The position numbers and the translations under genes are program-made. Positions 33,076 through 57,077 of a stretch of 64,000 nt of DNA are shown one piece after another. The notes below the pieces were generated by a model. It did not search any database and was not told the origin of the DNA. It was given only the letters and a program-made list of their open reading frames with translations. Numbering within the stretch: position 1 is the stretch's first letter; every line of letters begins with the position of its first letter. Source of the stretch: Ignavibacteriota bacterium (GTDB lineage: Bacteria; Bacteroidota; Ignavibacteria; UBA10030); the NCBI GenBank assembly GCA_003170475.1, contig PMZI01000045.1, positions 1 to 64,000 on the forward strand, given 5' to 3'.

Positions 33076-34248
33076 ATGTCGACACTGATGACGTATCGAA
33101 TTGAACATGATGCTCTCAACGAACTCATTCAAGAACTTCGAAAAGAAAAGTACAATGTTATTGGCCCGACCCCTCGAGGGGAGGCAATCGTACTTGACGA
33201 AATCACCTCCGCATTAGAACTGCCTATCGGCAAGACCGATGAGCAGTCGCCCGCCCAGTACCATCTCAAAGACAGGACGGACAAGGCATATTTCGGCTTT
33301 TCGGCCGGACCTCATTCCTGGAAGAAGTATCTCTTTCCTCCTATCCTCAGGCTCGTCACGGCGAGTGGGAATGGCAGCGATCTCCAAATCTCCGACGACG
33401 CAAGCAAGCCAAATGAGGAGGAAAAGTACGCGCTTTTCGGTGTTCGTGCCTGCGATCTCAGCGCCATTCACATTCAAGACCAGGTCTTTGGTGACGGAAC
33501 CTACAAGGATCCGGCGTACCTTCGGGTGAGAAATCAGGCATTTATCGTTGCCGTCAACTGCACGAGGGCCGGGGGCACTTGTTTCTGCTCGTCGGTGCGA
33601 ACAGGACCACGTGCGCGTGTAGGCTTTGACCTGGCACTGAGCGAAGTGATTGACAACGAGCACTACTTTATCGTGGAAGTTGGCACCGAGCGAGGCGAAA
33701 AAGTGATGAGCAGTGTGAGCCGCCGTCCTGCTGGAGATACTGAAATGGAGAAAGCTGATCGGCTGATTCGTGCTGCTGCGCAATTGACAGGCCGCTCTCT
33801 CGAACCCGACAACACACGTGAGATTCTGTATCAAAACACCGAGCATCCACGTTGGGATGTTGTCGCTGCCCGATGCCTCTCCTGTGCAAACTGCACAATG
33901 GTCTGTCCGACCTGCTTTTGTGCCACAGTCGAAGACACAACCGATCTCACAGGCACGGAAGCCCAACGCACACGCAAGTGGGATTCCTGCTTCACCATGG
34001 ACTTCTCCTACATCCACGGTGGAAGTGTTCGCCCTTCAGCCAGAGGACGCTATCGTCACTGGCTCACTCATAAACTCGCCTCTTGGGTCGACCAGTTCGG
34101 CACAATTGGCTGCGTGGGGTGCGGGCGGTGCATCACCTGGTGCCCGGTGGGTATCGACATTACCGAAGAATTTCGAGTTATCCGCGAGACGTATCTCATG
34201 ACCAGTCGCGTCAGTTCAACCAAGGAGGCTACCCATGGAAACTCTTGA
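33076..34248 (+). CDS. hydB: group 3b hydrogenase beta subunit, 4Fe-4S (HydB/HyhB-like)
   Basis: Electron-transfer subunit of a cytoplasmic NAD(P)-linked [NiFe] hydrogenase (sulfhydrogenase type). The 390-residue product has an N-terminal alpha/beta region with [15 protein letters not shown], central Cys in [13 protein letters not shown], and a C-terminal two-cluster ferredoxin domain: [16 protein letters not shown] near 270-285 and [16 protein letters not shown] near 350-365. It begins the hydrogenase block, and its end overlaps the start of the cyclic-nucleotide-domain gene. It would pass electrons between the small subunit and the FAD subunit. Confidence 0.85.
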
Positions 34249-34696
34249 ACGCATTCTCGGCCAGCATCCATTCTTCAAGGATCTCGGACCTGATTATCTG
34301 CAGCTTGTCACCGGCTGCGCGTCGAATGTTCGGTTTGAACAAGATACCTTCATCTTCCGCGAAGGGGAAGAGGCAAATCAGTTCTATCTCATCAGGGAAG
34401 GGCGGGTTGCCCTCCAGGTATTCTCTCCTGAACGAGGACACATCACGGTCGAGACGCTGGGAGAAGGTGACATCCTTGGCTGGTCCTGGCTGATTCCTCC
34501 GTACAATTGGCACTTCGACGCCAAGGCGCTTGATCTCACCCGGGCGATTGCTCTCGACGGAAAATGCCTGCGCCGCAAATGCGAGGAAGATCATCATCTG
34601 GGATATGAAATCCTCAAGCGCTTCGCTCATATCATCGAACAGCGACTTGAATCCACTCGACTACAATTACTTGATCTCTATGGCGTCCGTTCTTGA
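34235..34696 (+). CDS. cyclic nucleotide-binding domain protein in hydrogenase operon
   Basis: A 153-residue Crp-like sensor domain without any DNA-binding domain. Visible is the beta-roll with [20 protein letters not shown] and [14 protein letters not shown], followed by a helix that would be the dimer helix; no helix-turn-helix follows. Such short cNMP-fold proteins are known as neighbours of group 3b hydrogenase genes. AAGGAGG at 34222-34228 serves it. It overlaps hydB by 14 bp and hydG by 17 bp, so translation is probably coupled and the protein may regulate or dock on the enzyme. Confidence 0.8.
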
Positions 34697-35546
34697 AGTT
34701 CCATCTGACACAACGTTCGTTTCCGCCGGCCCGATGGTGCCGCGGCCTTTCGTGGTGAAACGGTTTCGCAAGGAAACGGATGATACGTTCACACTTGAAC
34801 TCGAGCCCAAAGAGGGTCGATCCCGGTTTGTCTTCGGTCCGGGTCAATTCAACATGGTCTATGTGTACGGCGTTGGCGAAGTCCCCATCTCCATCAGTGG
34901 GTCGCCATCAACCCCCGGGCTAATCCACACTACGCGTGCGGTAGGCACCGTCACGAAGGCCATGGCGAAGCTCAAGAAAGGCGATATCGTTGGGATTCGC
35001 GGTCCCTATGGTACAACGTGGCCGGTGAAAGAAGCACGATCTCACGACGTTGTGATCGTGGCTGGAGGTATCGGTCTCCCTCCGCTGCGAGGGGCAATCT
35101 ACGAGATCCTCTCGAACCGCAAAGACTATGGCAAGGTAGTCTTGCTGTATGGAGTACGGACACCGGCGGATATCCTCTTCAAAGACGAACTGGAACAGTG
35201 GCGTGCCCGGTTCGACATGGAGGTGTTCATCACAGTCGATCGCGCGGTCTCTGAGTGGAGAGGAAACGTTGGCGTTGTAACCACCCTGATCTCGAAGGCT
35301 GGGTTTGACCCTCAGAATACGATTGCCATGATCGTGGGGCCTGAAGTCATGATGCGGTTCACGGCGCTCGAATTCATCAAACGTAGCGTGAAACCCGACT
35401 CGATCTATTTGTCCATGGAACGAAACATGAAGTGTGGAATAGGTCTTTGCGGGCATTGTCAGTTCGGCCCGATGTTTGTGTGCAAAGATGGTCCCGTGTT
35501 CCGGTACACTCAAATCAAGGACTTACTGGTGAAGTGGGAAATCTGA
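34680..35546 (+). CDS. hydG: group 3b hydrogenase gamma subunit, FAD/NAD(P)-binding (HydG-like)
   Basis: Diaphorase subunit of the group 3b hydrogenase, carrying FAD, NAD(P) and a 2Fe-2S cluster. The ATG at 34680 (288 residues) is chosen because it starts the conserved protein; longer frames run into the previous gene. It has a ferredoxin-reductase-type FAD domain (FVFGPGQFNMVYV, PISISGSPS), an NAD(P)-binding region with VIVAGGIGLPPLRGAI, and a C-terminal Cys group CGIGLCGHC followed by a Cys in MFVCKDGP. The family is close to dihydroorotate dehydrogenase electron-transfer subunit PyrK, but the hydrogenase context decides. Confidence 0.87.
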   Translation: MASVLEVPSDTTFVSAGPMVPRPFVVKRFRKETDDTFTLELEPKEGRSRFVFGPGQFNMVYVYGVGEVPISISGSPSTPGLIHTTRAVGTVTKAMAKLKKGDIVGIRGPYGTTWPVKEARSHDVVIVAGGIGLPPLRGAIYEILSNRKDYGKVVLLYGVRTPADILFKDELEQWRARFDMEVFITVDRAVSEWRGNVGVVTTLISKAGFDPQNTIAMIVGPEVMMRFTALEFIKRSVKPDSIYLSMERNMKCGIGLCGHCQFGPMFVCKDGPVFRYTQIKDLLVKWEI

Positions 35547-35625
35547 GCGGGCTTGATTTGCATTCGAAGAAGTTTCGCTGCCAAACACCTATACTCTGAA
35601 TCAAACATAGATCCTCCAAGAAATC

Positions 35626-36405
35626 ATGAAGAAACAACGAAAACCAAAATTGGCAGTCTGGAAGTTCTCTTCGTGCGACGGATGCCAGTTAAGTCTCCTT
35701 GATTGCGAAGATGAACTCCTTGCCGTCGCTGAGAATATCGAGATTGCGAATTTCGTCGAGGCATCACGAAATGTCGTGAAGGGGCCGTACGACCTCTCGC
35801 TCGTGGAAGGTTCGATCACAACTCCCCACGACGCCGAACGGATTCATCAGGTGCGACGATCATCGAAAGTGCTGATCACGATTGGTGCCTGTGCAACGGC
35901 AGGGGGAATCCAGGCGCTTCGGAATTTCAAGGATGTCCGGGAATTCACGTCGATCGTCTATGCGACACCGTCGTACATCGAGACCCTGAATAAGTCGACT
36001 GCGATTGCGGATCACGTGTTTGTCGACTTCGAACTTCGGGGGTGTCCGATCAGCAAGCAGCAGCTCGTGGAGGTGTTGAGTGCGTTTCTGAATGGTCGCA
36101 AACCTGCCACGCCGTCCTACAGCGTTTGCCTTGAATGCAAGCGCCGGGGAACCGTGTGCGGTCTTGTGACGAACGGTCCTCCGTGCCTGGGTCCTGTGAC
36201 GCAGGCGGGATGCAACGCTCTGTGTCCCTCGTACAATCGGGGATGCTTCGGTTGCTTCGGCCCGAAAGAGACACCCAATACCAACTCGTTGGCATCATAC
36301 TGGAAGAGTCTTGGCACGAAGGATCCAGAACTTCTCAGGCTCTTCCGCAGCTACAACGCATATGCGGAATCCTTCCGGAAAGAAAGCGAAGCACATGAAA
36401 AGTAG
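35626..36405 (+). CDS. hydD: group 3b [NiFe] hydrogenase small (delta) subunit
   Basis: Small subunit with Fe-S clusters that carry electrons from the NiFe site. The 259-residue product begins with the proximal-cluster motif [12 protein letters not shown] near residue 15, has [10 protein letters not shown] and a later GCPISKQQ. A Cys-rich C-terminal half ([28 protein letters not shown] and RGCFGC) would bind medial and distal clusters. There is no Tat signal, so the enzyme is cytoplasmic. The large subunit gene overlaps its 3' end. Confidence 0.9.
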
Positions 36406-37678
36406 ATCGATCAAGGTTGACTACCTCGCCAGGGTTGAAGGTGAGGGAGGCATATCCATCAAGATTCAAGACAAGCTCGTCACGGATGTTGAGTTCGATA
36501 TTTTCGAACCGCCTCGCTTCTTTGAGGCTTTCCTCCGGGGAAGGTATTTCACAGAAGCGCCGGATATCACCGCGCGGATCTGTGGCATCTGTCCGGTTGC
36601 CTATCAGATGAGTTCCATTCACGCGATGGAAAATGCTTGCGGCGTGGCAATCACGGGCCAGCTCAGAGCGCTTCGGCGTCTGACCTACTGCGGAGAATGG
36701 ATCGAAAGCCACGCTCTGCACGTCTTCATGCTGCATGCACCTGATTTTCTGGGGTACGAAGATGCGATTCAAATGGCACGGGATCATGGCGATGTTGTTA
36801 AGAAAGCGCTGAAACTCAAGAAGGCTGGTAATGATCTCGTCGCTTTGGTCGGTGGACGGGAAATTCATCCTATCAACGTGAAGGTCGGCGGGTTCTATCG
36901 GGTTCCGACCAAGCGGGAGCTCAACTCCCTTGTAGATCGCTTGAAGTGGGCTCGGGATGCAGCCCTCGAAGCCGTCCAACTGACGGCCACGTTCCCATTT
37001 CCCGATTTCGAACGCGATTATGAATTCATCTCCCTGCGCCACGAAAGTGAATATCCCTTTAACGAAGGAAGGCTTGTTTCTAACAAAGGCCTCAATATTC
37101 CTATCGCGGAATACGAGAATAATTTTACCGAGGAACACGTGTCATACTCGAATGCGCTCCATTCGGTATTGAAGTCGCGCGGCGCATACCATGTTGGGCC
37201 TCTTGCCCGGTTCAATCTGAACTTCGATCGCCTTACTCCCATTGCTCAGGAAGCAGCAAAGTCTGTCGGCCTTCTTCCACCCATCACCAATCCGTTCAAG
37301 AGCATCGTGGTTCGAAGTGTGGAAACCGTCTACGCATGTGAAGAAGCCCTGCGGATTATTCAAGAATATGAGGCGCCCGAAGCACCTTCTGTTGATGTTC
37401 AGCCGAAGGCTGGGGTGGGATACGGATGCACAGAAGCTCCCCGCGGCTTCCTGTACCACCGCTATCGAATCAACGAAAAGGGCCTGATCATGGACGCGAA
37501 GATCGTGCCCCCGACTTCCCAGAATCAGAAGACGATGGAACAGGATCTCAGGGAGTTCGTCCCGCCACGGCTACACCTGACACAGGAGAAGCTTACGTGG
37601 CAGTGCGAGCAGGCGATCCGCAATTACGATCCATGCATCTCCTGCGCCACGCATTTCATTCGGTTGGAGATCAAGTAG
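36395..37678 (+). CDS. hydA: group 3b [NiFe] hydrogenase large (alpha) subunit
   Basis: Catalytic subunit that binds the NiFe(CN)2CO centre. The ATG at 36395 overlaps the small-subunit gene by 11 bp and starts at the conserved [14 protein letters not shown]; 427 residues. The N-terminal ligand motif is [11 protein letters not shown] (about 62-72) and the C-terminal one DPCISCATH, followed by only seven residues. The tail to be cut by a maturation protease is therefore short. A matching protease gene lies at 38374. With hydB, hydG and hydD it makes a complete four-subunit enzyme expected to exchange electrons with NADP(H). Confidence 0.92.
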
Positions 37679-41088: not shown

Positions 41089-41148
41089 TTGTTCAAGTAT
41101 TGATCAAGAGGGTAGCGGCAGAGAAGCTGATGGAGCATTGTGCGGAAA

Positions 41149-41195
41149 TGAAAAAGGGGGTAGACGGGCGGTACTGAGCCGACGCGTCTACCCCC
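41149..41195 (-). terminator. intrinsic terminator of the two-receiver regulator gene
   Basis: An 11-bp perfect stem, GGGGGTAGACG at 41156-41166 and CGTCTACCCCC at 41185-41195, lies next to AAAAA at 41151-41155, which reads TTTTT on the minus strand. It sits 18 bp after the regulator stop codon. Confidence 0.85.
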
Positions 41196-41212
41196 TGACT
41201 ATGGTTGGAGTC

Positions 41213-42385
41213 TTACGCGGCCAGGGCTTCGACCGCAACCTTCGCAAGTTCGTTCGGAGTAAAGGGCTTCGGTATGAAATTGAAAGCGCCGAGCTTTGTA
41301 GCCTCAATGGCTGTCTCAATCGTGCCGTGACCGGTGACTATGATGACCGGCAGCTCAGGCCATTGAGCCTTGATGGATTTGAGCACTTCCATCCCGCTGC
41401 GTTTCGGCATCTTAAGATCGAGCAAGACCAGATCGAACTTCTGCAATCGCATTTTCTGAAGCGCTGCATCGACATCGAACACTTCTTCGACTGCGCAACT
41501 TTGTTTCGAGAGTATCTTCCGGACGCTATGGCACACGATGGGCTCGTCATCAACGACGAGGACAGAATACTTGGCTGTCGCATCCCTTCCATACAAGCCT
41601 GCAAGAGGAATATCTGATCGGGTCAGGCAGTTGAGATAGTCTGTACCCGTGACGTGTTCGACCTCGGCCATGTTGAACGGCATGTCCACATCGATAAGAT
41701 CATTGGAGAACTTCTTCACCCTGGCGCCGCTCTTTGCACGCTCTTTCTCCTTCTTCAGGAGGATGCATTCCCCAGGGCATTCCCGACCTTCCAGCACCAG
41801 TCGCCGGCATTCACGGGCCCCCGTGTAGCAGTAGGCTTTCTCAGCGGTCTTCTTTGGAAGCGGAACATCAGAATGGGTGAGAGTCTCGACGAATTGTTGT
41901 GACGTTTGCTTCGCCACCGCTCGAGCGTTGAATGGCATATCAACATCGATGTTTTCATCAGGGATGTCATCTGATACGGACTGTGTCCTCTGTGCAGGTT
42001 TTGCTTTCACACGAATCATGCGGTTGGCGAGGGCATGTTCGGTGACCTTTGTCAGTTCGTCTGGGGTAAATGGTTTGGGAAGGTATGCACTCGCGCCCAG
42101 TTTTGTCGCCTTAACGGCGGACTCGATGGAAGCATAGCCTGTGATCATGATGACGTCGAGTTCGGGATACTTTTCACGGATGATCTGGACCAAATCCATG
42201 CCGCTCGTCCCAGGTATCATCAGGTCGGTGATGACAAGATCAAAAGTCATGTCATTGATGAGTTTTACAGCGTCATCGACCGTAAGAGCCTGCGAGACTT
42301 GGTACCCTTTCCGGCTGAGAATCTTTTTCACGCTTTGGCACACATTTTCTTCGTCGTCAACTACCAGAATTTTTTTCGTAATCAT
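41213..42385 (-). CDS. double-receiver response regulator with duplicated DVDMPF motif
   Basis: A 390-residue regulator with two CheY-like receiver domains and no DNA-binding or enzymatic output. The start at 42385 is the ATG just before KKILVVDDEE. Receiver 1 (1-120) has Asp54 and Lys104; receiver 2 (273-388) has Asp323 and Lys373, so both look phosphorylatable. The linker holds a 30-residue motif twice, at 147-176 and 232-261, beginning DVDMPFN and ending LTxSD(V/I)PL. Between the copies are four Cys (186, 193, 203, 207) in a CYTGAREC / RECPGEC arrangement that could bind metal. No known output domain was recognised. It has its own candidate sigma-54 promoter and terminator. Confidence 0.8.
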   Translation of the reverse strand: MITKKILVVDDEENVCQSVKKILSRKGYQVSQALTVDDAVKLINDMTFDLVITDLMIPGTSGMDLVQIIREKYPELDVIMITGYASIESAVKATKLGASAYLPKPFTPDELTKVTEHALANRMIRVKAKPAQRTQSVSDDIPDENIDVDMPFNARAVAKQTSQQFVETLTHSDVPLPKKTAEKAYCYTGARECRRLVLEGRECPGECILLKKEKERAKSGARVKKFSNDLIDVDMPFNMAEVEHVTGTDYLNCLTRSDIPLAGLYGRDATAKYSVLVVDDEPIVCHSVRKILSKQSCAVEEVFDVDAALQKMRLQKFDLVLLDLKMPKRSGMEVLKSIKAQWPELPVIIVTGHGTIETAIEATKLGAFNFIPKPFTPNELAKVAVEALAA

Positions 42386-42443
42386 TGTCGGGACCTCTTT
42401 GTTGTGCGGAGCACTTGATCTTACCGTAACTGCAGATAAACCT

Positions 42444-42458
42444 GCAATGATCATGCCA
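42444..42458 (-). promoter_or_regulatory. candidate sigma-54 promoter of the two-receiver regulator
   Basis: On the minus strand the sequence is TGGCATGATCATTGC, nearly consensus at -24 (TGGCA) with GG and GC 10 bp apart and TTGC at -12. The regulator ATG lies 58 bp downstream. The neighbouring NtrC-type activator gene supplies a plausible activator. Confidence 0.65.
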
Positions 42459-42652
42459 CATGCAACTATAACGCTTCAAACAAGTCAAGTGATGACTGTG
42501 TAAGGAATTATCAGATATCAAGAATGATTTGCACAATGTGGAAAACTGTGTGGGCCGGAACGTGGAAGAGCGGGAACCACTGAAAATGGGGAGAAAACGA
42601 AACAAAGCGGGGCGCTTGAGTGCACAAATCAATTACACATCTGCACATCCAA

Positions 42653-44053
42653 TTATGCGGGCGGCAGTTGTTTCTTGATACCGTACTTTCTCATCAAGGC
42701 TTGGAAATTCGAGCGCTGCATGCTCACATCCCGAGCCGCTTTGGAAACATTCCAATTGTTACGGATAAGGGACTCTTCAATGAAGAGCTTTTCAAGTTCC
42801 TGAACCGAGGACTCGCGGATTTTCCGCTTGAGATTCTTCAACTCCTCGCTCGTTTTCGGAATCATGGAACGAATCGCCGAATCGGTTCTGTAAAGAGCGG
42901 CTGAGATATGAATCGGTTCGATCTCATCACCGTCAACGAGGATCGTCAATCTCTCCACGACATGTTCGAGTTCCCGCACGTTACCGGGCCAATGGTACTC
43001 CATCAGCAATTCCATTGCCTCGGCGCGCACCCTGGGCATTGTTCGTTGAACGGCATCGCAGTACTTTTGCAGAAAATGATGCACAAGTTCCGGAATATCC
43101 TCATTTCGTTCCCGTAAGCTCGGCAGCCTAAGCGGAAACACATTGAGACGATAGTAGAGATCTTCCCTGAACTTCCCCTCTATGACGAGTTGCTTGAGGT
43201 TCTGATTCGTGGCAAAGATCAACCTGAGGTCAACCTTCTTGACTGACGTGCTTCCGACGGGCATGAACTCTTTTTGCTGGAGTACGCGGAGCAGACGCGC
43301 CTGCGTATCGATAGGAAGGTTTCCGATCTCATCGAGAAAGATGGTCCCCTGGTCCGCCACCTCGAACACCCCTGGTCTATCAGAGGTCGCACCGGTGAAC
43401 GAGCCCTTGACATGGCCGAAGAGTTCACTTTCGAGGATTGTGCTGGAGAGGGTGGAGATGTCAATCGCGAAGAATTTGTTATTCTTCCTTTTGCTGCGTT
43501 CGTGAATTGCCTTGGCAGTCAGATCCTTTCCGGTCCCGCTCTCTCCGATGATAAGAACCGTGCTGTCAGTCGGTCCAACCTTTTGAATAAGGCTGTACAC
43601 CTCGCGCATCGCGTTACTGGTGCCAATCATCCCTTCAAATCCGCCGGAATCGTTGTATTCAAACTCGGGCTCTGCCATGAGAAGCAGCTTACGTCTTTCG
43701 AGCGCTCTATCCAGAACAGCAATCAGCTCCCCGGCAGTAAAAGGCTTCGGCAGATAGTCGAACGCCCCCGACCTCATGGTTTCGACTGCTGAGGCGATGG
43801 TTGCATATCCGGTGATGATGACGACAACCGTTGTCGGGTAATGTTCTTTGATGTTTTGGAGGACTTCCAGCCCACCCATGTCCATCATCTTAAGATCGGT
43901 GAAAACGACGTCATAGGTCTCTGCCTTGAGCATGGCAAGGGCTGCGCGTCCGGAAGTGGCTGAACCAACGGTGTGACCTGAGCGGCGGAAAACCTTTTCG
44001 CAGCTTTTACAAATGACGGGTTCGTCGTCGACGATGAGTATATGAGCATTCAT
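42653..44053 (-). CDS. NtrC-family sigma-54-dependent response regulator
   Basis: Transcriptional activator of 466 residues: receiver (Asp53, Lys103), AAA+ domain and Fis-type helix-turn-helix. The Walker A motif reads GESGTGKD near residue 173, and Walker B has [11 protein letters not shown]. The sigma-54 contact loop reads GSFTGA instead of GAFTGA. The arginine-finger region and R-rich sensor II ([14 protein letters not shown]) are present. The C-terminal HTH is [20 protein letters not shown]. It starts 4 bp after the kinase stop, so the two form a cognate pair. It is the natural candidate to activate the sigma-54-type promoters in this window. Confidence 0.93.
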
Positions 44054-44057
44054 GAGA

Positions 44058-46034
44058 TTAGGAGGAAGCTTCGTTTGTCAGAACTGGGAGCGAGATGGTG
44101 AATGTCGAGCCTTTGCCAGGGTTGCTGTCGACACTGATGGTTCCGCCGTGCTGTTCGACGATTCCGTAACTGATCGACAGGCCGAGGCCAGTGCCGTGTT
44201 CCTTGGTGGTGTAGAATGGATCGAAAATGCGCTCCCGCACCTCTTCGGAGATTCCAGGACCTGTATCGGCAAATGTGATGACGATCGATTCACGATCCGC
44301 CGATCGAGCCGATCGGATCTTCAGCGATCCGCCTTTCGTCATTGCTTCTGCAGCGTTCAGGATGATATTCACAAACACTTGCTGAATCTGGTCCGGATCA
44401 ACGAGAATGTCGGGGATGTCGGCAGAAAGGTCCTTCTCGATCAGGATATTGCGGAAAGATGTCTGGTTGCGCACCAGCAGAATGATGTTGTCAATCAAAG
44501 CGTTGATGCTGGCGAGGCGTTTTTGCGGCCTTGTTTGGCGAGCAAAATCAAGCAGTCGTTTTACGATCTCCCGGCATCGGATGGTCTCTTTCACCATCAC
44601 TTCGACGTCCTCGTATTTTGGATCGTCTTTCTCCATGTCTTCGAGGAGTAAGCTGCTATTCGTGAGAATGCCCGTCAGCGGATTATTGATCTCGTGCGCA
44701 ACACCGGCAGCGAGCTTTCCAAGGGATGCCAGCTTCTCAGACCGGAACAACTGCGCATTGATCTTCTTCATCTCGTCAGCGCGTTCACTGACTTTCTTTT
44801 CCAACGTGGTTCCCCACTCCTCGAGCTCCCGTTTCTCCTGTTCAAGCTGCTTCGCCATCTTGTCCAAGGATCGCGCAAGATGTTCAATTTCTCGCGGTCC
44901 TTTCACCTTGAAGTCGTGTCTGTATTCGCCGTCCGAAATGCGCTGTGAACTCTCTTCAAGCTTTCGCAGCGGAAGCGAGAATCGTTTCGCGAGAAAGATG
45001 GACACGAGAACGATGCTCAAGACTCCGAGGAGAGCGATGCCGAGAAATGTGATGATGCCTCGCTGAAGGACATCATCAAAGGGTTGCTTGAGGACTCCCA
45101 CGTACAGCATCCCAATAATGCCGCCATTGAGGTCCCGTATCGGTTCGTAGGCGGTAATGTAGGTGGCATTGACCACGAATGCTTCACCCACCCATCGTTT
45201 GCCCTCCTTGAGCACGGCATCGTACACCTCGCTGGAGACAAGTGTGCCAAGAGCTCTTGATCCGTCCGCGTTTTTGACATTGGTCGAAATGCGGAGATCG
45301 CCCTGGAAGATTGTCGCGGTCCCGATTTCTTTCCCTTGATAGATCTGTCCTTCATGGACGATTTCCTTGATCTTGTCGACAACTTCGAAGTTGCGATTGA
45401 GCAACACGCCGCCGATGAGAACGCCAAGGAAATGATCGTTGTCGTCAAAGACGGGAACAGCGGAAGCCATCATCATGCCGGACGTCTCTTCGTGTTCCTT
45501 TCGTTCCTTGGCCTTCGGTGTGGGAATGACTTGCATCGATGCCTGGGCTGCGAGATCGGGAGAAGCCTTTATCAGGAGGTCGCGGCTGAGCAGATCGGTT
45601 CCGCTGACGGGCTGGCGGGTCCTGATGACACGTTCGATGAATCTGTCCTCGAGAATGTTGTCACCATACATCGCAGGGTTACGCCCCCGTGCGATGACAT
45701 TGCCTCGGCTGTCTGTGATCGAAAGAATGTCGAGTTTCTCCCGCCGCAGAATGCCTGTGAAGTCCTTTGTGAGAAAATTGTGATCGTGGTTGACCAGGGC
45801 TGCTCGGACGAGTCGGCGTACCGCAGTCAGGCGTGTGATGCTGTGAATCTCTGAAATCTTATTGCGATAGATTTCGCGCGCGGAGTTCAGATCGGATATG
45901 GTCTTGGTTTCTGCTCGGGTGATTGTCTGATCAGAGATGATCCTCATCCCAACGTACATTGTGACGATAGCCGGAACGAGAATGGCGATAGAGAAGGCAA
46001 GGATGAGTTGGGACTGAATCGTTTTCACGATCAT
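44058..46034 (-). CDS. sensor histidine kinase with periplasmic Cache-type domain
   Basis: Membrane sensor paired with the NtrC-type regulator. The ATG at 46034 is preferred (658 residues) because the first helix (LILAFSIAILVPAIVTMYVG) follows at once; a GTG at 46103 is possible. A large extracytoplasmic region (about 30-300) looks like a double-Cache domain, with a second helix near 325-345, then HAMP, a coiled coil, and HisKA with the phospho-His in AAGVAHEINNPL near residue 447. HATPase motifs follow (ILNAAEAM, FADTGPGI, GTGLGLSIS). The ligand is not deducible; small organic acids are typical for Cache sensors. Confidence 0.88.
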   Translation of the reverse strand: MIVKTIQSQLILAFSIAILVPAIVTMYVGMRIISDQTITRAETKTISDLNSAREIYRNKISEIHSITRLTAVRRLVRAALVNHDHNFLTKDFTGILRREKLDILSITDSRGNVIARGRNPAMYGDNILEDRFIERVIRTRQPVSGTDLLSRDLLIKASPDLAAQASMQVIPTPKAKERKEHEETSGMMMASAVPVFDDNDHFLGVLIGGVLLNRNFEVVDKIKEIVHEGQIYQGKEIGTATIFQGDLRISTNVKNADGSRALGTLVSSEVYDAVLKEGKRWVGEAFVVNATYITAYEPIRDLNGGIIGMLYVGVLKQPFDDVLQRGIITFLGIALLGVLSIVLVSIFLAKRFSLPLRKLEESSQRISDGEYRHDFKVKGPREIEHLARSLDKMAKQLEQEKRELEEWGTTLEKKVSERADEMKKINAQLFRSEKLASLGKLAAGVAHEINNPLTGILTNSSLLLEDMEKDDPKYEDVEVMVKETIRCREIVKRLLDFARQTRPQKRLASINALIDNIILLVRNQTSFRNILIEKDLSADIPDILVDPDQIQQVFVNIILNAAEAMTKGGSLKIRSARSADRESIVITFADTGPGISEEVRERIFDPFYTTKEHGTGLGLSISYGIVEQHGGTISVDSNPGKGSTFTISLPVLTNEASS

Positions 46035-46525
46035 ACGCTCGCTGGAATCACAAGATGCGCGGCACGCGCCTTCACTTGTAGAGAGAACTTGCGGATGCGC
46101 CACGCAATCGACATGTCAATATGGTCAAAAGCGTCGAGGTTTTCAAATTCCTTCGAAGACGATTTCAGATGGATTGTTGGGCGCGAGAAATCGTATTCTC
46201 ATTCACGATACGATCATGTTCCGCGAGTGCAATCAGAGGTTTTGGAGTTTCCTCATCATGAGAATCAGTTGAATGACGTCGCGGTCCGTCGCTGAACTCT
46301 TTCGCGTGGGCCAAGGAGACGAAGACGGCATGGAACGCTTCGGCGAGGAACATTTTTTGAAGAGATCTCTACTCATCAGGTGGTTCGAACTGCGGATGAT
46401 TGAGTTGAGGGTCGCCAAATGTGACCAGATATGACACTGTTGAATAATTCAGCAGCTGTGTGCTTTCTCATCATAATCATCAATAAGAATGGGCTTTTTT
46501 GAAGCATAGGCCTCAATAGTTTCGT
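46035..46525. other. intergenic region with possible gene remnant and inverted repeat
   Basis: No intact gene is seen. On the minus strand, 46418-46165 shows two overlapping short frames whose pieces (SRDLFKK, then FHAVFVSLAHAKEFSDG, then RDVIQLILMMRKLQNL) could be one small protein broken by frameshifts; this is weak. At 46436-46454 the near-palindrome CTGTTGAAT-A-ATTCAGCAG (8 of 9 pairs) lies about 72 bp before the candidate promoter of the MarR gene and could be its operator. Confidence 0.3.
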
Positions 46526-46540
46526 TTGCACAATATTTGC
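46526..46540 (+). promoter_or_regulatory. weak candidate sigma-54 promoter of the MarR/Hdr operon
   Basis: TTGCACAATATTTGC has correct spacing and a perfect -12 TTGC, but the invariant GG at -24 reads TG. The GTG start of the MarR gene lies 37 bp downstream. The support is mainly by analogy with the three better elements in the window. Confidence 0.3.
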
Positions 46541-46577
46541 CTATAGGAAAGGGATTTGAACAAAAGGCGTCGAAATC

Positions 46578-46997
46578 GTGGAAGGAACAGAACCGAGATT
46601 TGGAGCTGGACTCCTGAGGCTGACCCGCCGATGCCGAGGCATCGACAAGTACGTCTCGTCAAGAGCGCAACTCACGATAGATGAGTTGCACTGCCTCAGC
46701 GTACTGTTCTCTGAGCATCCCTCTTCGGTGAAGAGGCTCAGCGAGCTGATTAATGTCAGCACGACACGGGCCTCAAAGATTCTTAAAGACCTGGAGCAGC
46801 GCGGCTATCTTTCTCGCACTCCCGACTCAGAGGATCGCCGAAAGGAGCAGGTTCTCCTCACGGAGACAGGCGCCATGACGGTGCAGAAGATCCTATCGTT
46901 CTATACTGAGATCGGTAGCGAGTTGCTTACAAGCTGGCGGCATGAACTTGCGCAGGATTTTTCCTGGCTGCTGCAGTCGGTACATCAACCCAAATGA
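46578..46997 (+). CDS. MarR-family transcriptional regulator
   Basis: Winged-helix regulator of 139 residues. From a GTG start the chain has a first dimer helix, then the DNA-binding wing: LSELINVSTTRASKILKDL followed by RGYLSRTPDSEDRRKEQVLL, the DxRxxxxxLT signature of the family. It is the first gene of the long Hdr/hydrogenase operon and most likely controls it, perhaps through the near-palindrome at 46436-46454. No Cys pair suggestive of thiol sensing is present. Confidence 0.85.
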   Translation: MEGTEPRFGAGLLRLTRRCRGIDKYVSSRAQLTIDELHCLSVLFSEHPSSVKRLSELINVSTTRASKILKDLEQRGYLSRTPDSEDRRKEQVLLTETGAMTVQKILSFYTEIGSELLTSWRHELAQDFSWLLQSVHQPK

Positions 46998-47007
46998 TTC
47001 AACTCTG

Positions 47008-47556
47008 ATGCTCATTCCCAATGACGTTCGTCAACAGAAGCGCCTCACGATCATCGGACTCGGCAATGAAATGCTCTCCGACGACGGATTGGGGATCAAG
47101 GTCGTCCGCGAACTCAAGAATCGTCTTCACGATCCCTCGGTGGTATTTGAAGAACTTTCCGTGGGAGGGCTTCAACTGTTCGATCATCTCATCGGAACTG
47201 ACGAGTGCATTATTGTCGATGCCATCATGACCGGGGTGCAACCAGCGGGCACCATGGTACGATTTGTCCAGACCGCTGATCGCGAGCCGGTGAAACTCAC
47301 TTCTTCTCATCAAATCGATCTTGGTCAAATCCTGGGACTTGCGCGATTCATGGGAGCACCTCTCCCGAAGAGACTCACCGTCTATGGAATAGAAGCGGAC
47401 GACATAACGACGTTTAGAGAACAGTGCACCTCTCAAGTGTCTCAAGCAATTCCGAAGCTTGTAGAAGCAATCTGCGACGACGTGCAAACGGATCGCGCTG
47501 AACTCCTGCCATGCAACGACGAATGGCAAATTATCTCTGATCTTGTAACAGACTGA
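47008..47556 (+). CDS. [NiFe] hydrogenase maturation protease (second copy)
   Basis: HycI/HyaD-type protease of about 182 residues that should process the group 3c-like large subunit at 58040. The ATG at 47008 is 10 bp after the MarR stop. The motif IIGLGNEMLSDDGLG supplies the first metal ligand, DECIIVDAIMTG the second Asp, and SSHQIDLGQ the His. Compared with the protease at 38374 it has a longer C-terminal tail. The presence of two proteases fits two distinct hydrogenases. Confidence 0.87.
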   Translation: MLIPNDVRQQKRLTIIGLGNEMLSDDGLGIKVVRELKNRLHDPSVVFEELSVGGLQLFDHLIGTDECIIVDAIMTGVQPAGTMVRFVQTADREPVKLTSSHQIDLGQILGLARFMGAPLPKRLTVYGIEADDITTFREQCTSQVSQAIPKLVEAICDDVQTDRAELLPCNDEWQIISDLVTD

Positions 47557-47573: not shown

Positions 47574-48260
47574 ATGGAACATGCCACGCATCAACTCCCC
47601 GGACTGATGACCCGAACTGAAGCCGACCTGAGACAAATCTTCCTCAGGCAGGTGGAAGCCATTCCGGCTGGCGAGCGTATCAAGCGATGTATCCAGTGCG
47701 GGACGTGCACAGGTTCATGCCCCGTGAGCTACGCTATGGATATCTCACCTCGACAGCTTATTGCGCTCTTCCGCGCGGGCGAACTGGAAACCGTGATGAA
47801 AAGTCGCTCCATCTGGATCTGTGCTTCGTGCTATGCGTGTACAACGCGATGCCCGTCTGGTATCAAGATCACGGATGTCATCTACGCACTGAAGCGCACA
47901 GTCATGGAGAAGGGGTATGAGTCGAAGGCGCCTCAGGTTCAGGTGCTTGCGAGATTGTTCGTCGATAACCTGATGAGCTACGGTCGATTGCATGAGGGAA
48001 CCCTGATCAGGAAATACTACATGAAGACCGGCATCTTCAAGCTCTTTGGGTTTGTCCCGCTGGTAATAAAAATGTTTGAAACGAAACGACTTGCATTATT
48101 TCCGAAGAAGATCAAGGAACACAAGTCGTTGTCCCGCATTATCAAGAAGGCGCAGGAAATCGAGATGCGACACGTTCCGGAAAAGCTTGAATACTCGCCC
48201 GAGTTTGTCGGCTACCGAGGACTCGGTGAGATGAAACTCGAATCCAGAAAAGGAGAGTGA
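47574..48260 (+). CDS. hdrC: heterodisulfide reductase subunit C-like
   Basis: Iron-sulfur subunit that passes electrons from HdrA to HdrB. The 228-residue product has two [4Fe-4S] motifs: CIQCGTCTGSCP near residue 39 and CASCYACTTRCP near 83. The following ITDVIYALKRTVMEKG and the helical C-terminal half match HdrC. No membrane helix is present, so it is the soluble type. The gene is 17 bp after the protease gene and overlaps hdrB, consistent with one operon. Confidence 0.9.
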   Translation: MEHATHQLPGLMTRTEADLRQIFLRQVEAIPAGERIKRCIQCGTCTGSCPVSYAMDISPRQLIALFRAGELETVMKSRSIWICASCYACTTRCPSGIKITDVIYALKRTVMEKGYESKAPQVQVLARLFVDNLMSYGRLHEGTLIRKYYMKTGIFKLFGFVPLVIKMFETKRLALFPKKIKEHKSLSRIIKKAQEIEMRHVPEKLEYSPEFVGYRGLGEMKLESRKGE

Positions 48261-48262
48261 CC

Positions 48263-49144
48263 GTGAAATACGCGTATTACCCCGGTTGCAGCCTCGAAAA
48301 AACGCAGCGAGGCTATGATGAATCCGTGAGGGAAGTGTTCAAGGCGCTGGACCAGGAGCTGATAGAAATTGACGACTGGAATTGCTGTGGCGCGACGATG
48401 TACATGTCAGTGAAAGAAACCGTCTCCCTTGCTGTCTCGGCTCGCAATCTGGCGTTGGCAGAGAGAATGGGGCTCGACATTCTTGCCCCATGCAGCTCAT
48501 GTTTCACCACACTTTCCAAGACTAACCGGATCCTGAATCAGATTCCCGAAATGCATCGGGATGTCAATGAGGCTCTGGCTGAGGGGGGATTGAGTTACAG
48601 CGGTAAGGTTCGGGTCCGCCACCCTCTGGATATCCTGATGAACGATATCGGTCTGGAGACGGTTCGGGCCAAGTTCAAGAGAAACCTGAATGGACTGAAG
48701 ATTGCCCCGTATTACGGTTGCCAAATTGTACGACCGGACAAGACCTTTGATGACCGGGAAAACCCCATGCTGTTGGATCGGCTGTTTCGTGCATGCGGTG
48801 GTGAGCCTGTCTATTTTCCCATGAAGGTGCGATGTTGCGGCGGAATGTTGATGACCACATTCGAAGAGACCGCATTGAAGCTCAACAAGGAACTTCTCGA
48901 GTGCGCGATGGACAACGGCGCTGATGTGATGGTCACCACCTGCCCGCTTTGTCATTTTAACCTCGAGGCCTACCAGGGCAAAATCAACAATTTCTACAAA
49001 ACCAAGTTCAATGTTCCTGTCATGTACTTCACACAGTTGCTAGGAATTGCCCTCGGTCTTCCGGCCAAAGGTCTGGGGTTGGATTCCTCGTTCATACCCC
49101 TGGGGGAGAAGATCAATTCGTTAGCGGAGGCTCACTATGCCTGA
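48263..49144 (+). CDS. hdrB: heterodisulfide reductase subunit B-like
   Basis: Catalytic-type subunit with two CCG domains that in methanogens hold non-cubane [4Fe-4S] clusters for disulfide reduction. The GTG at 48263 has AGGAG 7 nt upstream; a GTG at 48257 is an alternative. The first CCG domain shows YYPGCSLEK, WNCCGATMY and PCSSCF. The second shows YYGCQIVRP, RCCGGMLMT and TTCPLCHFNL. All expected Cys are present, so it is probably active, although the natural disulfide in a non-methanogen is unknown. It overlaps the HdrA N-half gene by 8 bp. Confidence 0.9.
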   Translation: MKYAYYPGCSLEKTQRGYDESVREVFKALDQELIEIDDWNCCGATMYMSVKETVSLAVSARNLALAERMGLDILAPCSSCFTTLSKTNRILNQIPEMHRDVNEALAEGGLSYSGKVRVRHPLDILMNDIGLETVRAKFKRNLNGLKIAPYYGCQIVRPDKTFDDRENPMLLDRLFRACGGEPVYFPMKVRCCGGMLMTTFEETALKLNKELLECAMDNGADVMVTTCPLCHFNLEAYQGKINNFYKTKFNVPVMYFTQLLGIALGLPAKGLGLDSSFIPLGEKINSLAEAHYA

Positions 49145-50015
49145 GAATCTTAAGCCTACCAACGGCAACGGTCACATCAAGATCGGCGTCTACATTTGTC
49201 ATTGCGGGGTGAATATTTCCTCAACGGTGAATGTCACGCAAGTCCGTGATTTTGCCGCGAAGCAGCCGCATGTGGCTATCGCCCGCGACTACAAGTTCAT
49301 GTGCTCCGACCCGGGGCAAGATTTGATCAAGCAAGACATCAAGAACATGGGTGTCAACAGAGTGGTTGTGGCCGCATGCTCGCCCTTGATGCATGAGCTG
49401 ACATTTCGTATGGCGGCCGAATCAGCCGGGTTGAACCGCTATCTTGTCCAGATCGCGAATATCCGTGAGCATTGTTCTTGGGTGCACGACGATCGCGAGG
49501 CAGCGACGATGAAGGCATGTGCGTTGGTGAATGCTGCGATTCGCCGTGTTGCTCTCCAGGTGCCGATGCAGATCACGAAACAGCCGGTAAACAAGGCGAC
49601 GATGATTGTCGGTGGAGGAATCGCCGGCATCCAGGCGGCACTCGAGATCGCGAATGCGGGGCATCATGTGTACCTTGTCGAGAAAGAACCCACCATCGGC
49701 GGAAGAATGGGTCAGTTCGACAAGACGTTTCCGACCTTGGATTGCGCAGCGTGTATCCTGACACCGAAGATGGTTTCGGTCGGCCATCGGAAAGACATTA
49801 CGTTGCTGACATATTCGGAGGTGGAAAGTGTCTCCGGTTACATCGGCAATTTCAAGATACGCGTTCGGAAGAAAGCGCGATACGTCGATACTGAAAAGTG
49901 TACAGGATGCGGTCAGTGCTGGAGCAATTGTCCCGCAGTTCGCATTCCATCGGGCCGCTCCATTACGATCGGGGATCAACTTATCAATGAGATCTCCACG
50001 CGACCGCAGGAATAG
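49137..50015 (+). CDS. hdrA: HdrA N-terminal half (FAD part), split gene
   Basis: The 292-residue product matches only the first half of HdrA (usually about 650 residues). Visible are the N-terminal HdrA domain (YICHCGVNIS, MCSDPGQ, ACSPLMHE, NIREHCSWVH), the FAD Rossmann motif GGGIAGIQAA near 159, KTFPTLDCAACILTPKM, and one ferredoxin motif CTGCGQCWSNCP near 255. It then stops, just where the protein encoded at 54775 takes over. The two should assemble into one flavoprotein. The stop is followed at once by the next gene with its own ribosome site, so this is not a simple sequencing frameshift. Confidence 0.85.
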   Translation: MPENLKPTNGNGHIKIGVYICHCGVNISSTVNVTQVRDFAAKQPHVAIARDYKFMCSDPGQDLIKQDIKNMGVNRVVVAACSPLMHELTFRMAAESAGLNRYLVQIANIREHCSWVHDDREAATMKACALVNAAIRRVALQVPMQITKQPVNKATMIVGGGIAGIQAALEIANAGHHVYLVEKEPTIGGRMGQFDKTFPTLDCAACILTPKMVSVGHRKDITLLTYSEVESVSGYIGNFKIRVRKKARYVDTEKCTGCGQCWSNCPAVRIPSGRSITIGDQLINEISTRPQE

Positions 50016-50017
50016 AA

Positions 50018-51445
50018 ATGTTCGTCGTACTTCGTCACGACTTGACTGTCAGGACGATGTTCGATACGCCAGGGATGAAAGCAGAAGAGTTGCAGTGGTC
50101 ATCAACATCAACGAGACAAATGAAGCCGGACTTTCGCTCAATACGGATCGATACAGAGAAATGCACAGGTCGGATGAAATGCCTCCGCAGTTGTCCGACG
50201 CAGGCATTGCGTGTGCGTAACGGGAAGGCGAAGCTGTTGAGCGATCGTTGCATCGATTGCGGCGAATGCGTGCGCGTGTGCCCCAACCACGCCTTCATCC
50301 CGCAGACCAGTTCGTTCAGCGATTTCTCCGGGTTCAAATATACGATCGCGCTGCCGTCACCGGTATTCTATTCTCAGTTCGGCAAGGATGTAGAGCCGTC
50401 GGCGATCCTCGAAGCGCTCAAGACAGTGGGGTTTGATGACGCGTATGACGTGGCGTGTGCATCCGAATCTGTCAGCATTGCGATTCAGGAGTACCTCGAC
50501 ACGAATGGAACACCCCGGCCGCTGATCTCTCCGTTTTGTCCTACGATTGTGAGACTGATTCAAGTCCGATATCCCAATCTTCTGGACAATCTGATACCGA
50601 TTGAGTCCCCCATGGAGATCGCCGCTCGTGAGGCAAAACGGGCGAAAATGCATGAACTGGGTTTGAAGGAACACGAGATAGGGGCTATCTATCTGGCCCC
50701 ATGTCCCTCGAAGATGATTGCATTGAAGAATCCTCCGCGGAAGAAGCACTCGTTCCTCGATGGAGTGATGCCGATTGCTGACATCTATCCGAATATGTTG
50801 CGTGCGCTCGCGCATTCTGAACACACGACGGGCATGTCGGAAATCCGGGGTTTGGGACTCGGGTGGCCAATTGTCGGTGGACAGGTCTCGAGTCTGAAAG
50901 CTGAAGAGTCGATCGCTATCGCTGGACTCGCGGATGTGATGAGGGTCTTTGACGAGATCGAAAATGGGAAACTCAAGGACATCCAATATATCGAATGCCA
51001 TTCTTGCCCGACAGCGTGCGTTGGAGGCTCCCTGACCGTTGAAAACCCCTACATCGCAAGGGGAAGGGTTCTTCGCATGGTGGAGAAATATGGTCAACAA
51101 CCATGTCAGGATCGACAAAAGATTCGCGATCTGTATCAGAAGAACTTTTTTTCGCTCGTCGGAAGAATTGCGCCAAGTCCCAGCCAACCTCTAGATGAAG
51201 ACTTGTCGAGAGGTATTCAGAAAATGCATCGGCGGCAACAAACGTATGACATCCTTCCGAAAATCGACTGTGGTGCATGTGGCGCCCCCTCTTGTCTGAC
51301 GTTTGCGGAAGACGTGGTGAAAGGGAATGCCGAAGCCGATGAATGCGTCTTCCTTGCGATGAAATCATTCGAATCGATGTCCACGAACCTTCTGGATGTT
51401 GTCGGTAAACACAGCAAGAAGATTCGAAGCAACATTTCGAGTTGA
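50018..51445 (+). CDS. [FeFe]-hydrogenase-like protein with degenerate H-cluster site
   Basis: A 475-residue protein with the large-subunit C-terminal domain of [FeFe] hydrogenases but altered active-site motifs. Motif 1 reads SPFCPTIV (first Cys lost), motif 2 APCPSKMIAL, and motif 3 ECHSCPTACVGG. The N-terminal ferredoxin has CTGRMKCLRSCP near 49 (second Cys replaced by Arg) and an intact CIDCGECVRVCP near 79. A C-terminal Fe-S domain has CGACGAPSC near 418 and a later Cys. Proteins of this kind may act as redox or H2 sensors rather than catalysts. AGGA lies 6 nt before the ATG. Confidence 0.8.
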   Translation: MFVVLRHDLTVRTMFDTPGMKAEELQWSSTSTRQMKPDFRSIRIDTEKCTGRMKCLRSCPTQALRVRNGKAKLLSDRCIDCGECVRVCPNHAFIPQTSSFSDFSGFKYTIALPSPVFYSQFGKDVEPSAILEALKTVGFDDAYDVACASESVSIAIQEYLDTNGTPRPLISPFCPTIVRLIQVRYPNLLDNLIPIESPMEIAAREAKRAKMHELGLKEHEIGAIYLAPCPSKMIALKNPPRKKHSFLDGVMPIADIYPNMLRALAHSEHTTGMSEIRGLGLGWPIVGGQVSSLKAEESIAIAGLADVMRVFDEIENGKLKDIQYIECHSCPTACVGGSLTVENPYIARGRVLRMVEKYGQQPCQDRQKIRDLYQKNFFSLVGRIAPSPSQPLDEDLSRGIQKMHRRQQTYDILPKIDCGACGAPSCLTFAEDVVKGNAEADECVFLAMKSFESMSTNLLDVVGKHSKKIRSNISS

Positions 51446-51493: not shown

Positions 51494-52036
51494 ATGGAAG
51501 ATCTGTCACTACATGTTCTCGACATAGCTGAAAACTCCGTCCGCGCGGGAGCCAAGAACATCAGCATTCTTGTCGTGGAAAACGTTGGAGAGGATTGCTT
51601 GACGATTGAAATTCGAGATGATGGTAAGGGAATGAGTGCCGAGAACGTAGAGCGGGCTGCAGATTCTTCTTACACAACACGGAAGAATGCCCGGGCCGGA
51701 ATGGGCCTCGCACTTTTGAAAGAAGCAGCCGAGATGGCGAAGGGGAGATTGGAGCTTCATTCCGTTCCGAACTCAGGGACGACTGTGCGAGCGACTTTCC
51801 AGCTGAGCAGTGTGGAAAGGAAGCCTCTCGGAAATATGGCGGAAACGATCACAGCAATCCTTGCGACGGAGAATCAGGTGAATGTCTTCTACCGACATTC
51901 TCGCGGTGGAAAAAGTATCACTTTCGATTCGCAGCATGCTGAAAATCAATTGGGAGATATACTGTTGGGTTCGATTGAGGCGTTGAGCCTCGTTCGCACA
52001 TTTCTGGAACAGGAAGAGTCGAGTTTGACACAATAA
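51494..52036 (+). CDS. small HATPase-domain protein in hydrogenase operon
   Basis: A GHKL-type ATP-binding protein of 180 residues without a phospho-acceptor or sensor domain. The N-box is IAENSVRAGAKNI, G1 is IRDDGKGMS, and G2 is ARAGMGLALLKEAAEM. Similar stand-alone ATPase genes occur in clusters of bifurcating [FeFe] hydrogenases of Firmicutes and Thermotogae, next to NuoE-like and NuoF-like genes. With the degenerate hydrogenase protein upstream it could form a signalling pair, for example as an anti-sigma-like or partner kinase. Function inferred only. Confidence 0.75.
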   Translation: MEDLSLHVLDIAENSVRAGAKNISILVVENVGEDCLTIEIRDDGKGMSAENVERAADSSYTTRKNARAGMGLALLKEAAEMAKGRLELHSVPNSGTTVRATFQLSSVERKPLGNMAETITAILATENQVNVFYRHSRGGKSITFDSQHAENQLGDILLGSIEALSLVRTFLEQEESSLTQ

Positions 52037-52051
52037 GTCAGAGGAGATCTC

Positions 52052-52504
52052 ATGAACGCCCAAATGCTTGAAACAATACTCCACCGACATCCGAAAGATC
52101 CGAGTTCAATCATTCAGGTTATGCTCGATATACAGAATGAGCTCTACTACCTTCCTCGGGATGTTCTGAACTACGTCTCGGAGTATTTGAACGTGCCTCT
52201 CAGCAGAACGTACAATCTTGCGACGTTCTACAAGGCCTTCAGTCTCAAGCCGAAAGGCAAATATCCGATCGCTGTGTGCACGGGTACAGCATGTCATGTG
52301 CAGGGGGCGATCAAGATCATGGAGCAGATTGAACGGGAGCTTCATATCAAAGAAGGAGAGACCACGCCGGATAAGAAGTTCAGCGTGGAGAGCGTGAGAT
52401 GCCTCGGGTGCTGCGGGTTGGCTCCGGTGGTGACCGTCGGAAAGAATCTCCATGGAAGAATACCGACATCTAAAGTTTCCAAGATCCTCAAGCAATATGA
52501 ATAG
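52052..52504 (+). CDS. NuoE/HydC-like 2Fe-2S subunit
   Basis: Thioredoxin-fold 2Fe-2S subunit of a NADH-linked bifurcating complex (HydC or NuoE type). The 150-residue product has a helical N-terminus (IQVMLDIQNELYYLP), then Cys ligands in CTGTACHVQG and CLGCCGLAP. It lies 15 bp after the HATPase gene with GGAGAT at the ribosome site, and ahead of ferredoxin-like and NuoF-like genes, the usual gene order of HydABC-type complexes. Confidence 0.9.
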   Translation: MNAQMLETILHRHPKDPSSIIQVMLDIQNELYYLPRDVLNYVSEYLNVPLSRTYNLATFYKAFSLKPKGKYPIAVCTGTACHVQGAIKIMEQIERELHIKEGETTPDKKFSVESVRCLGCCGLAPVVTVGKNLHGRIPTSKVSKILKQYE

Positions 52505-52516
52505 GAGGAGTATTCG

Positions 52517-52906
52517 ATGGGCAAGATGAACATAGAAGACCTGGAAAAGATTCGTGAGCAGGGGCGATACAAGATGGCTCTCCGCCAGGGAACGGGCCGC
52601 GTCAGAATTATTGTGCATATGGGAACCTGCGGTATCGCAGCAGGGGCGAGGGGTATCCTGACGGCCGCAATGAAAGAAATCGAATTGCGGGGTCTGCATG
52701 ATGTCATTGTCACCAATGCGGGTTGTGCGGGTCTGTGCAGCCACGAGCCGATGATGACTGTCGAGGTGCTCGGTGAATCAGCGCCCGTGAAATATGTTTA
52801 TCTGACGGCGGAAAAGGTGAAGAGGATCTTCGATTCACACGTTCTGAAAGGGCAAGTAACGAAAGAATTCGCCCTGGAAGTCGTCAGCGAGAAAACACAT
52901 TCATGA
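52517..52906 (+). CDS. thioredoxin-like 2Fe-2S ferredoxin
   Basis: A 129-residue (2Fe-2S) protein of the thioredoxin-like ferredoxin family. Cys ligands lie in HMGTCGIAAGAR and NAGCAGLCSHEP. Such a small protein is commonly encoded between NuoE-like and NuoF-like genes in bifurcating hydrogenase clusters; it resembles the N-terminal domain of HydB/NuoF-type subunits. The start follows GGAGGAG, and the gene is 12 bp after its upstream neighbour. Confidence 0.85.
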   Translation: MGKMNIEDLEKIREQGRYKMALRQGTGRVRIIVHMGTCGIAAGARGILTAAMKEIELRGLHDVIVTNAGCAGLCSHEPMMTVEVLGESAPVKYVYLTAEKVKRIFDSHVLKGQVTKEFALEVVSEKTHS

Positions 52907-52933
52907 AGTTGTTGTGACTAAGGAGACGCTCTC

Positions 52934-54760: not shown

Positions 54761-54774
54761 AGAGCGAGACAACT

Positions 54775-56535: not shown

Positions 56536-56598
56536 GTGAATCTCCACAAGACAAACAAGAACGAAAGAGTTTAGAGGAATCGAGAAAGGCATTTCGAC

Positions 56599-57039
56599 AT
56601 GGCATTCGAACCAAGAATCATAGGCTTCCTGTGCAATTGGTGCTCTTACACCGGTGCGGACCTTGCCGGAGTATCCCGAATTAAGTCAGCTCCGAATGTC
56701 CGGATCCTGCGTACAATGTGCAGCGGCAGAGTGGACCCGGCGTTTATCTTGAAAGCGTTTCAGCTCGGGGCAGACGGCGTCATCGTGATGGGATGTCATC
56801 TAGGAGACTGTCACTATCAGGAGGGGAATTACAAGACCATCCGGCGATTGCCGTTCCTGAAACGCCTCGTGAAGGATTTCGGGATTGATCCTCGTCGATT
56901 GAGACTCGAGTGGGTTTCAGCGTCGGAAGGCGACAAGTTTGCAAAAATCGTAAACGAAATGACGGAGGAAATCCGTCAACTCGGCCCGCTGAAACTCACG
57001 GTACACAGGGAGATTGAACGGGCGATTGCACAACCATAA
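56599..57039 (+). CDS. mvhD: MvhD-type iron-sulfur adaptor subunit
   Basis: Small 2Fe-2S protein that connects the [NiFe] hydrogenase to HdrA in HdrABC-MvhADG complexes. The 146-residue product has FLCNWCSYTGAD near residue 11, RTMCSGRVDP near 38, and GCHLGDCHYQEGN near 64, the characteristic Cys pattern of the family. It is placed between the HdrA C-terminal fusion and the hydrogenase small subunit, as expected for the bridging role. Confidence 0.93.
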   Translation: MAFEPRIIGFLCNWCSYTGADLAGVSRIKSAPNVRILRTMCSGRVDPAFILKAFQLGADGVIVMGCHLGDCHYQEGNYKTIRRLPFLKRLVKDFGIDPRRLRLEWVSASEGDKFAKIVNEMTEEIRQLGPLKLTVHREIERAIAQP

Positions 57040-57077
57040 GTTGATCAAGGTTTGAAAAAGGATAGAAGGAGATTATC

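Follow-up and report, generated by a model that had tools for sequence, protein, structure and literature searches.

A conserved twin-receiver protein with a cysteine-bearing linker, encoded beside an NtrC-type activator and hydrogenase genes in Ignavibacteria

FrzZ of Myxococcus is a receiver-only protein with two REC domains, which belongs to a chemotaxis-like system and is not known to have a conserved Cys linker. The HupT/HupR and HoxJ/HoxA systems each consist of a kinase and an NtrC-family regulator encoded beside hydrogenase genes, and we know of no third protein of the twin-receiver kind in them. One-kinase/two-regulator phosphate-sink circuits have been established elsewhere and give thresholds (PMC4214558). 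Receiver-only regulators that act through partner binding are known as well, according to the available part of PMC12802240. The NiFe-HydABCSL operon of Acetomicrobium mobile, as given in the available part of PMC8880783, encodes HydB- and HydA-like proteins, [NiFe] S and L subunits, and the accessory proteins HydD, HydP, and HisK.

We analyzed a gene in a 64,000-nucleotide stretch (the window) of contig PMZI01000045.1 from an Ignavibacteriota bacterium (GCA_003170475.1). Its product, P0001, is similar to FrzZ in having two CheY-like receivers and no DNA-binding output. Unlike FrzZ, it carries a conserved Cys-bearing linker, and its gene is a predicted sigma-54 target beside that of an NtrC-type regulator. 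In contrast to HupT/HupR and HoxJ/HoxA, the kinase of the P0001 system is of the membrane Cache-domain type, and it is the twin-receiver gene that has the conserved sigma-54 site, none being clear for the hydrogenase operon. As in the circuits of PMC4214558, there are one kinase, one output regulator, and one regulator without obvious output, with receivers of common origin. The differences are that the putative sink would here itself be induced by the output regulator, that it carries a conserved Cys module, and that the present circuit is known from sequence. The hydrogenase cluster of the window resembles the bifurcating NiFe-HydABCSL enzyme of A. mobile in its HydB- and HydA-like proteins, [NiFe] S and L subunits, and accessory genes, but adds HdrCBA-like genes and a [FeFe]-like Fe-S protein. 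The kinase–NtrC–twin-receiver unit belongs to the window, and the available part of that source does not mention one for the A. mobile operon (PMC8880783). The locus appears to hold a compact circuit from an under-studied class, in which a kinase, a sigma-54 activator, and a twin-receiver protein very probably induced by that activator are inherited with a hydrogenase module.

Receivers, two-component partners, and regulatory DNA

The gene, its partners, and the predicted regulatory elements are located as follows.

41147-41196, reverse strand: predicted intrinsic terminator directly 3′ of the P0001 gene, with a T run after a hairpin of −27.3 kcal/mol
41213-42385, reverse strand: twin-receiver protein P0001, 390 aa, REC1 - linker - REC2
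41240-41563, reverse strand: REC2, residues 275-382
42041-42373, reverse strand: REC1, residues 5-115
42443-42458, reverse strand: predicted sigma-54 (−24/−12) promoter TGGCATGATCATTGCA, 73 bases upstream of the P0001 start codon
42632-42649, reverse strand: inverted repeat GATGTGCAGATGTGTAAT upstream of P0001, putative enhancer for the NtrC-type activator
42653-44053, reverse strand: NtrC-type sigma-54-dependent response regulator (REC - Sigma54_activat - HTH_8), the next gene upstream of P0001
44058-46103, reverse strand: membrane histidine kinase (sCache_3, HAMP, HisKA with HEINN box, HATPase)

The preliminary description had given an ORF starting at 42385, with two receivers and no known output domain, and our ORF check and Pfam search agreed with it. 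An alternative 413-aa ORF starts inside the sigma-54 promoter. Both receivers matched PF00072 above the cut-off (113 and 104 bits) and were the only Pfam matches. No AAA+, HTH, or other output domain was found with Pfam or NCBIfam, the NCBIfam matches being receiver families far under their cut-offs. The acidic pair, phosphoacceptor Asp, Thr/Ser, and Lys are present in both receivers of the family, and the phosphoacceptor Asp of each is invariant in 24 out of 24 intact members. D10, D11, D54, T82, and K104 of REC1 are invariant, as are D279, D280, and D323 of REC2; T/S351 and K373 occur in all members complete there, those truncated at these positions being left out of the counts.

The gene order kinase–NtrC–P0001 is kept in the family, with NtrC as the neighbour in all 24 members and the kinase present wherever the contig reaches. 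In a receiver tree that took in 18 other receivers of the same genome and two NtrC receivers only, the REC1 and REC2 clades are sisters (support 96/87), and the receiver of the NtrC partner is the sister of the two together (97/93). The receivers fit a duplication from that of the NtrC partner and a shared kinase. The HEINN box is typical of bifunctional kinase/phosphatases, and the HisKA domain fits such an enzyme. Two loci (L080 and L078, in G058 and G015) encode another kinase of the same family near the system, followed by a gene common to both.

We searched for −24/−12 sites with the pattern TGGCAC-N5-TTGCA. In 23 out of 24 members, a site with up to two mismatches precedes the start codon by 48-85 bases, and 21 out of 24 had one with at most one mismatch, a level reached by 0.23% of shuffles. 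Genome-wide, no excess of sigma-54 sites was found (15 vs. 15 in the control). The inverted repeat, with the family consensus aaTATGCAnnTGCATAtt, came from an unsupervised motif search of intergenic DNA and had a log-likelihood of 128, against 24-28 in shuffles. It mostly lies near the ntrC stop codon. When 430 kb of loci were scanned, nearly all of its intergenic matches sat upstream of a P0001-family gene, and in most loci this was its sole intergenic occurrence. The motif from the first enhancer search was the coding end of ntrC and was rejected as an artefact.

Of the 21 members that could be evaluated, 16 have a strong terminator after the gene, among them the one in the window; the result for G479 is invalid (contig end). 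RpoN is encoded in the genome. With promoter, inverted repeat, terminator, and RpoN all present, the P0001 gene very probably forms a sigma-54 transcription unit of its own, under the control of the neighbouring NtrC-type activator. The earlier account of the protein as a regulator stands as to architecture, but it had left out this separate sigma-54 unit behind the gene of the activator, which is the most telling feature of the locus. The conserved pair of putative enhancer and promoter provides a handle for finding further targets of this activator.

The linker and the distribution of the family

The conserved parts of the linker are the following.

41603-41692, reverse strand: motif copy 2, residues 232-261, DVDMPFN...LTRSDIPL, holding the invariant Cys253 (41627-41629)
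41765-41830, reverse strand: cysteine segment Cys186-x6-Cys193-x9-Cys203-x3-Cys207
41858-41947, reverse strand: motif copy 1, residues 147-176, DVDMPFN...LTHSDVPL

REC1 and REC2 are separated by a linker of about 120 residues (125 in the conservation count). The preliminary description had noticed in it a twofold motif with four cysteines in between, and both observations extend to the family: the two copies and Cys186, Cys193, Cys203, and Cys207 are kept in 24 out of 24 intact homologues. The copies are 30 residues each and identical at 15 out of 30 positions, and the ungapped BLOSUM62 self-match of the linker scored 77, compared with a maximum of 39 in 500 linker shuffles. A fifth invariant cysteine (24 out of 24), Cys253, had been overlooked; it lies inside copy 2 only. 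D147, D149, P151, and F152 of copy 1 and D232, D234, P236, and F237 of copy 2 are invariant as well. Altogether, 26 of the 125 linker positions are invariant at an overall linker identity of about 50-60%, and residues 123-146, 216-231, and 262-273 are variable.

By sequence, the Cys module is unmatched in Pfam and the PDB. Searched alone, the linker had no Pfam hit with E up to 1 and gave no convincing PDB match, and the motif matched no known domain there. With the cysteines conserved as well, neither of the two refuting outcomes named in the preliminary description occurred. The spacing C-x6-C-x9-C-x3-C matched no family tested. A structure prediction had also been proposed; AlphaFold, given the full-length protein (24 sequences) and, separately, the isolated linker, modelled the receivers well and the linker with low confidence (pLDDT about 30-70, mostly 30-60), so convergence of the cysteines cannot be shown. 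At this low confidence, two short helices follow the extended DVDMPF stretch in each copy. The linker would plausibly be a metal or redox module, a docking site, or both; probably it combines the first role with the docking of a partner. A general docking element was not borne out: the motif was found in no other protein architecture, and is thus part of one lineage-restricted protein.

A profile search with the linker, close to what the preliminary description had advised, recovered relatives together with their neighbours. There were 24 intact homologues, all in the class Ignavibacteria, with 55 to 93% identity to P0001. The linker profile was positive in 17 out of 98 genomes of the order, in 27 out of 391 of the class (one of the 27 being a weak fragment match), and in 4 out of 395 of an even draw over the phylum, all four in class Ignavibacteria. 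A pattern scan of one genome per bacterial or archaeal species gave close relatives only under Ignavibacteria, Ignavibacteriales, Bacteroidetes, or unnamed-bacterium labels, mostly on contigs of genomes already found by the profile. The weaker relatives (L022-L046) lacked the motif and were rejected. Viral contigs and plasmids contained no relatives. Within its own genome, P0001 alone has the motif; the next match (E 0.009, one internal stop) lay in an apparently unrelated gene and was rejected. The P0001 family is real, conserved, and lineage-restricted, has a strong regulatory context, and is previously undescribed, no description having been found among the open-access papers listed (subscription journals were outside the scope).

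The gene of the Fe-S protein at 50018-51445 was used as a marker standing for the Hdr/[NiFe]-hydrogenase module. Within the order, it was present in 13 of the 17 linker-carrying genomes and in 1 of the 81 others (Fisher 6e-12, a value uncorrected for phylogeny that overstates the evidence; the members are scattered over several families). All of the nine further members outside the order had it. The link to hydrogenase genes, first drawn from their proximity in the window, is thus borne out as co-inheritance. Four genomes with the linker but without the marker are the exceptions, two with intact copies (G037 and G058) and two with broken ones (G001 and G051). The copy in G001 is without REC1 and part of motif copy 1, and that in G051 is frameshifted in its assembly. 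That the broken copies are in marker-less genomes suggests joint decay. The decayed remnant in G001 (L014/L089) lies beside a hydrogenase large-subunit gene, with no kinase or NtrC neighbour in the stretch examined.

Proposed circuit and alternative readings

We propose, with a probability of roughly 0.45, that P0001 is a receiver-only protein which is induced through sigma-54 and feeds back on the upstream two-component system as a phosphate sink or threshold device. The regulatory circuit around P0001 is well supported; the sink function and the metal of the linker we infer from the sequences. Judging from domains and gene order, the membrane kinase (44058-46103) would phosphorylate the NtrC-type activator (42653-44053). 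The activator would bind the inverted repeat at 42632-42649 and drive RNA polymerase-sigma-54 at 42443-42458 to give P0001 as a single-gene transcript; both DNA elements are backed by conservation. Both P0001 receivers would then compete for the phosphate of the same kinase, which would make them a sink or threshold that limits the response. A feedback sink would be expected to look like this: a receiver-only protein induced by an activator with a similar receiver. The linker, with its five invariant cysteines and two motif copies, may bind a metal or respond to redox, dock a partner, or both, and Cys invariance and co-inheritance are the basis on which it might tune phosphate flow in cells running the Hdr/[NiFe]-hydrogenase. 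Some observations speak against a sink. A plain sink needs no conserved 120-residue linker with five invariant cysteines, the intact members of G037 and G058 are in genomes without the hydrogenase marker, and G054, G557, and G578 have at best a weak copy of the inverted repeat.

A receiver-only protein can also be an effector. Phosphorylation of P0001 might expose or hide the Cys linker, which would bind one of the enzymes or regulators in the Hdr/[NiFe]-hydrogenase module and control it post-translationally. This is possible, and we hold it tentatively. It accords with the P0001 gene standing out as the one target whose sigma-54 elements are conserved across nearly all loci, with the co-inheritance, with a linker conserved like a binding surface, and with the precedent of partner-binding receiver-only regulators in the available part of PMC12802240. 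However, its binding partner is hypothetical, two intact members are without the marker gene, and the common origin of the receivers with that of NtrC fits the feedback sink equally.

In a reading that takes up the metal or Fe-S site of the preliminary description, the linker would be the primary redox or metal sensor, with Fe-S or Zn on Cys186/193/203/207 and Cys253, and would gate the receivers; this would be compatible with both a sink and an effector. The cysteines are invariant, and the neighbourhood is full of Fe-S and hydrogenase proteins; on the other hand, their spacing fits no tested family, the linker is poorly ordered in the models, and invariant cysteines may be structural. We likewise regard such a sensor as possible and hold it tentatively. 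A redox- or metal-responsive linker would tie cell redox state directly to two-component phosphate flow. It is doubtful that an Fe-S- or zinc-binding Cys-motif domain makes the phosphate flow of the proposed feedback partner redox-dependent, in a loop dedicated to the bifurcating Hdr/[NiFe]-hydrogenase of Ignavibacteria. A mere structural spacer or dimerisation element for the two receivers, with a structural Zn site, is improbable: the variable parts and low predicted order would suit it, but motif cores and five cysteines invariant at this linker identity are beyond the needs of a spacer.

The adjoining hydrogenase genes

The divergent operon upstream of the kinase gene contains the following genes.

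46578-46997, forward strand: MarR-type regulator, first gene of the divergent hydrogenase operon
46942-47556, forward strand: HycI-type hydrogenase maturation protease
47574-51445, forward strand: HdrC-like, HdrB-like (CCG), HdrA-like N-terminal part, and [FeFe]-hydrogenase-like Fe-S protein (50018-51445)
51494-59503, forward strand: HATPase protein, HydB-like (NuoF), HydA-like (NuoG-type), and [NiFe] small and large subunits, a NiFe-HydABCSL-like hydrogenase

The Fe-S protein at 50018-51445 (Fe_hyd_lg_C + Fer4 + FeS) adjoins the HATPase gene. By eye it is without the usual H-cluster motifs, FCPTIVRL replacing TSCCPxW, and it is probably no hydrogenase by itself. The window has two separate [NiFe] clusters, one at 33076-37678 (Fer4_22-containing, with small and large subunits) and the HydABCSL-like one at 52934-59503.

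Sigma-54 control of the hydrogenase operon in the window was rejected, as only weak sites within the shuffle range were found. The site upstream of the MarR gene in G000, G002, and G015 was also rejected; it lies within a palindromic stretch more like a MarR operator or an ordinary promoter. Palindromic stretches at 46420-46545 (TGTTGAATAATTCAGCA; CAATAG...CTATTG-like in G002), partly common to G002 and G015, lie upstream of the MarR gene and are likely a MarR operator. A better sigma-54 site at the hydrogenase operon is common to G033, G066, and G052, with no enhancer match there; use of sigma-54 by this operon is weakly indicated.

A hydrogenase cluster of this kind, with DRTGG and PHP proteins in addition, follows the P0001 gene on the same strand in family f16. 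The terminators after the twin-receiver gene speak against transcription running on from it into the hydrogenase operon in such same-strand genomes. In four loci of family f2 (L085, L087, L088, and L090), the gene lies beside sugar-nucleotide (dTDP-sugar type) genes with no adjoining hydrogenase cluster. The marker gene is missing in G051 and located elsewhere in the three other genomes, and the kinase and NtrC accompany the twin-receiver gene in three out of these four loci.
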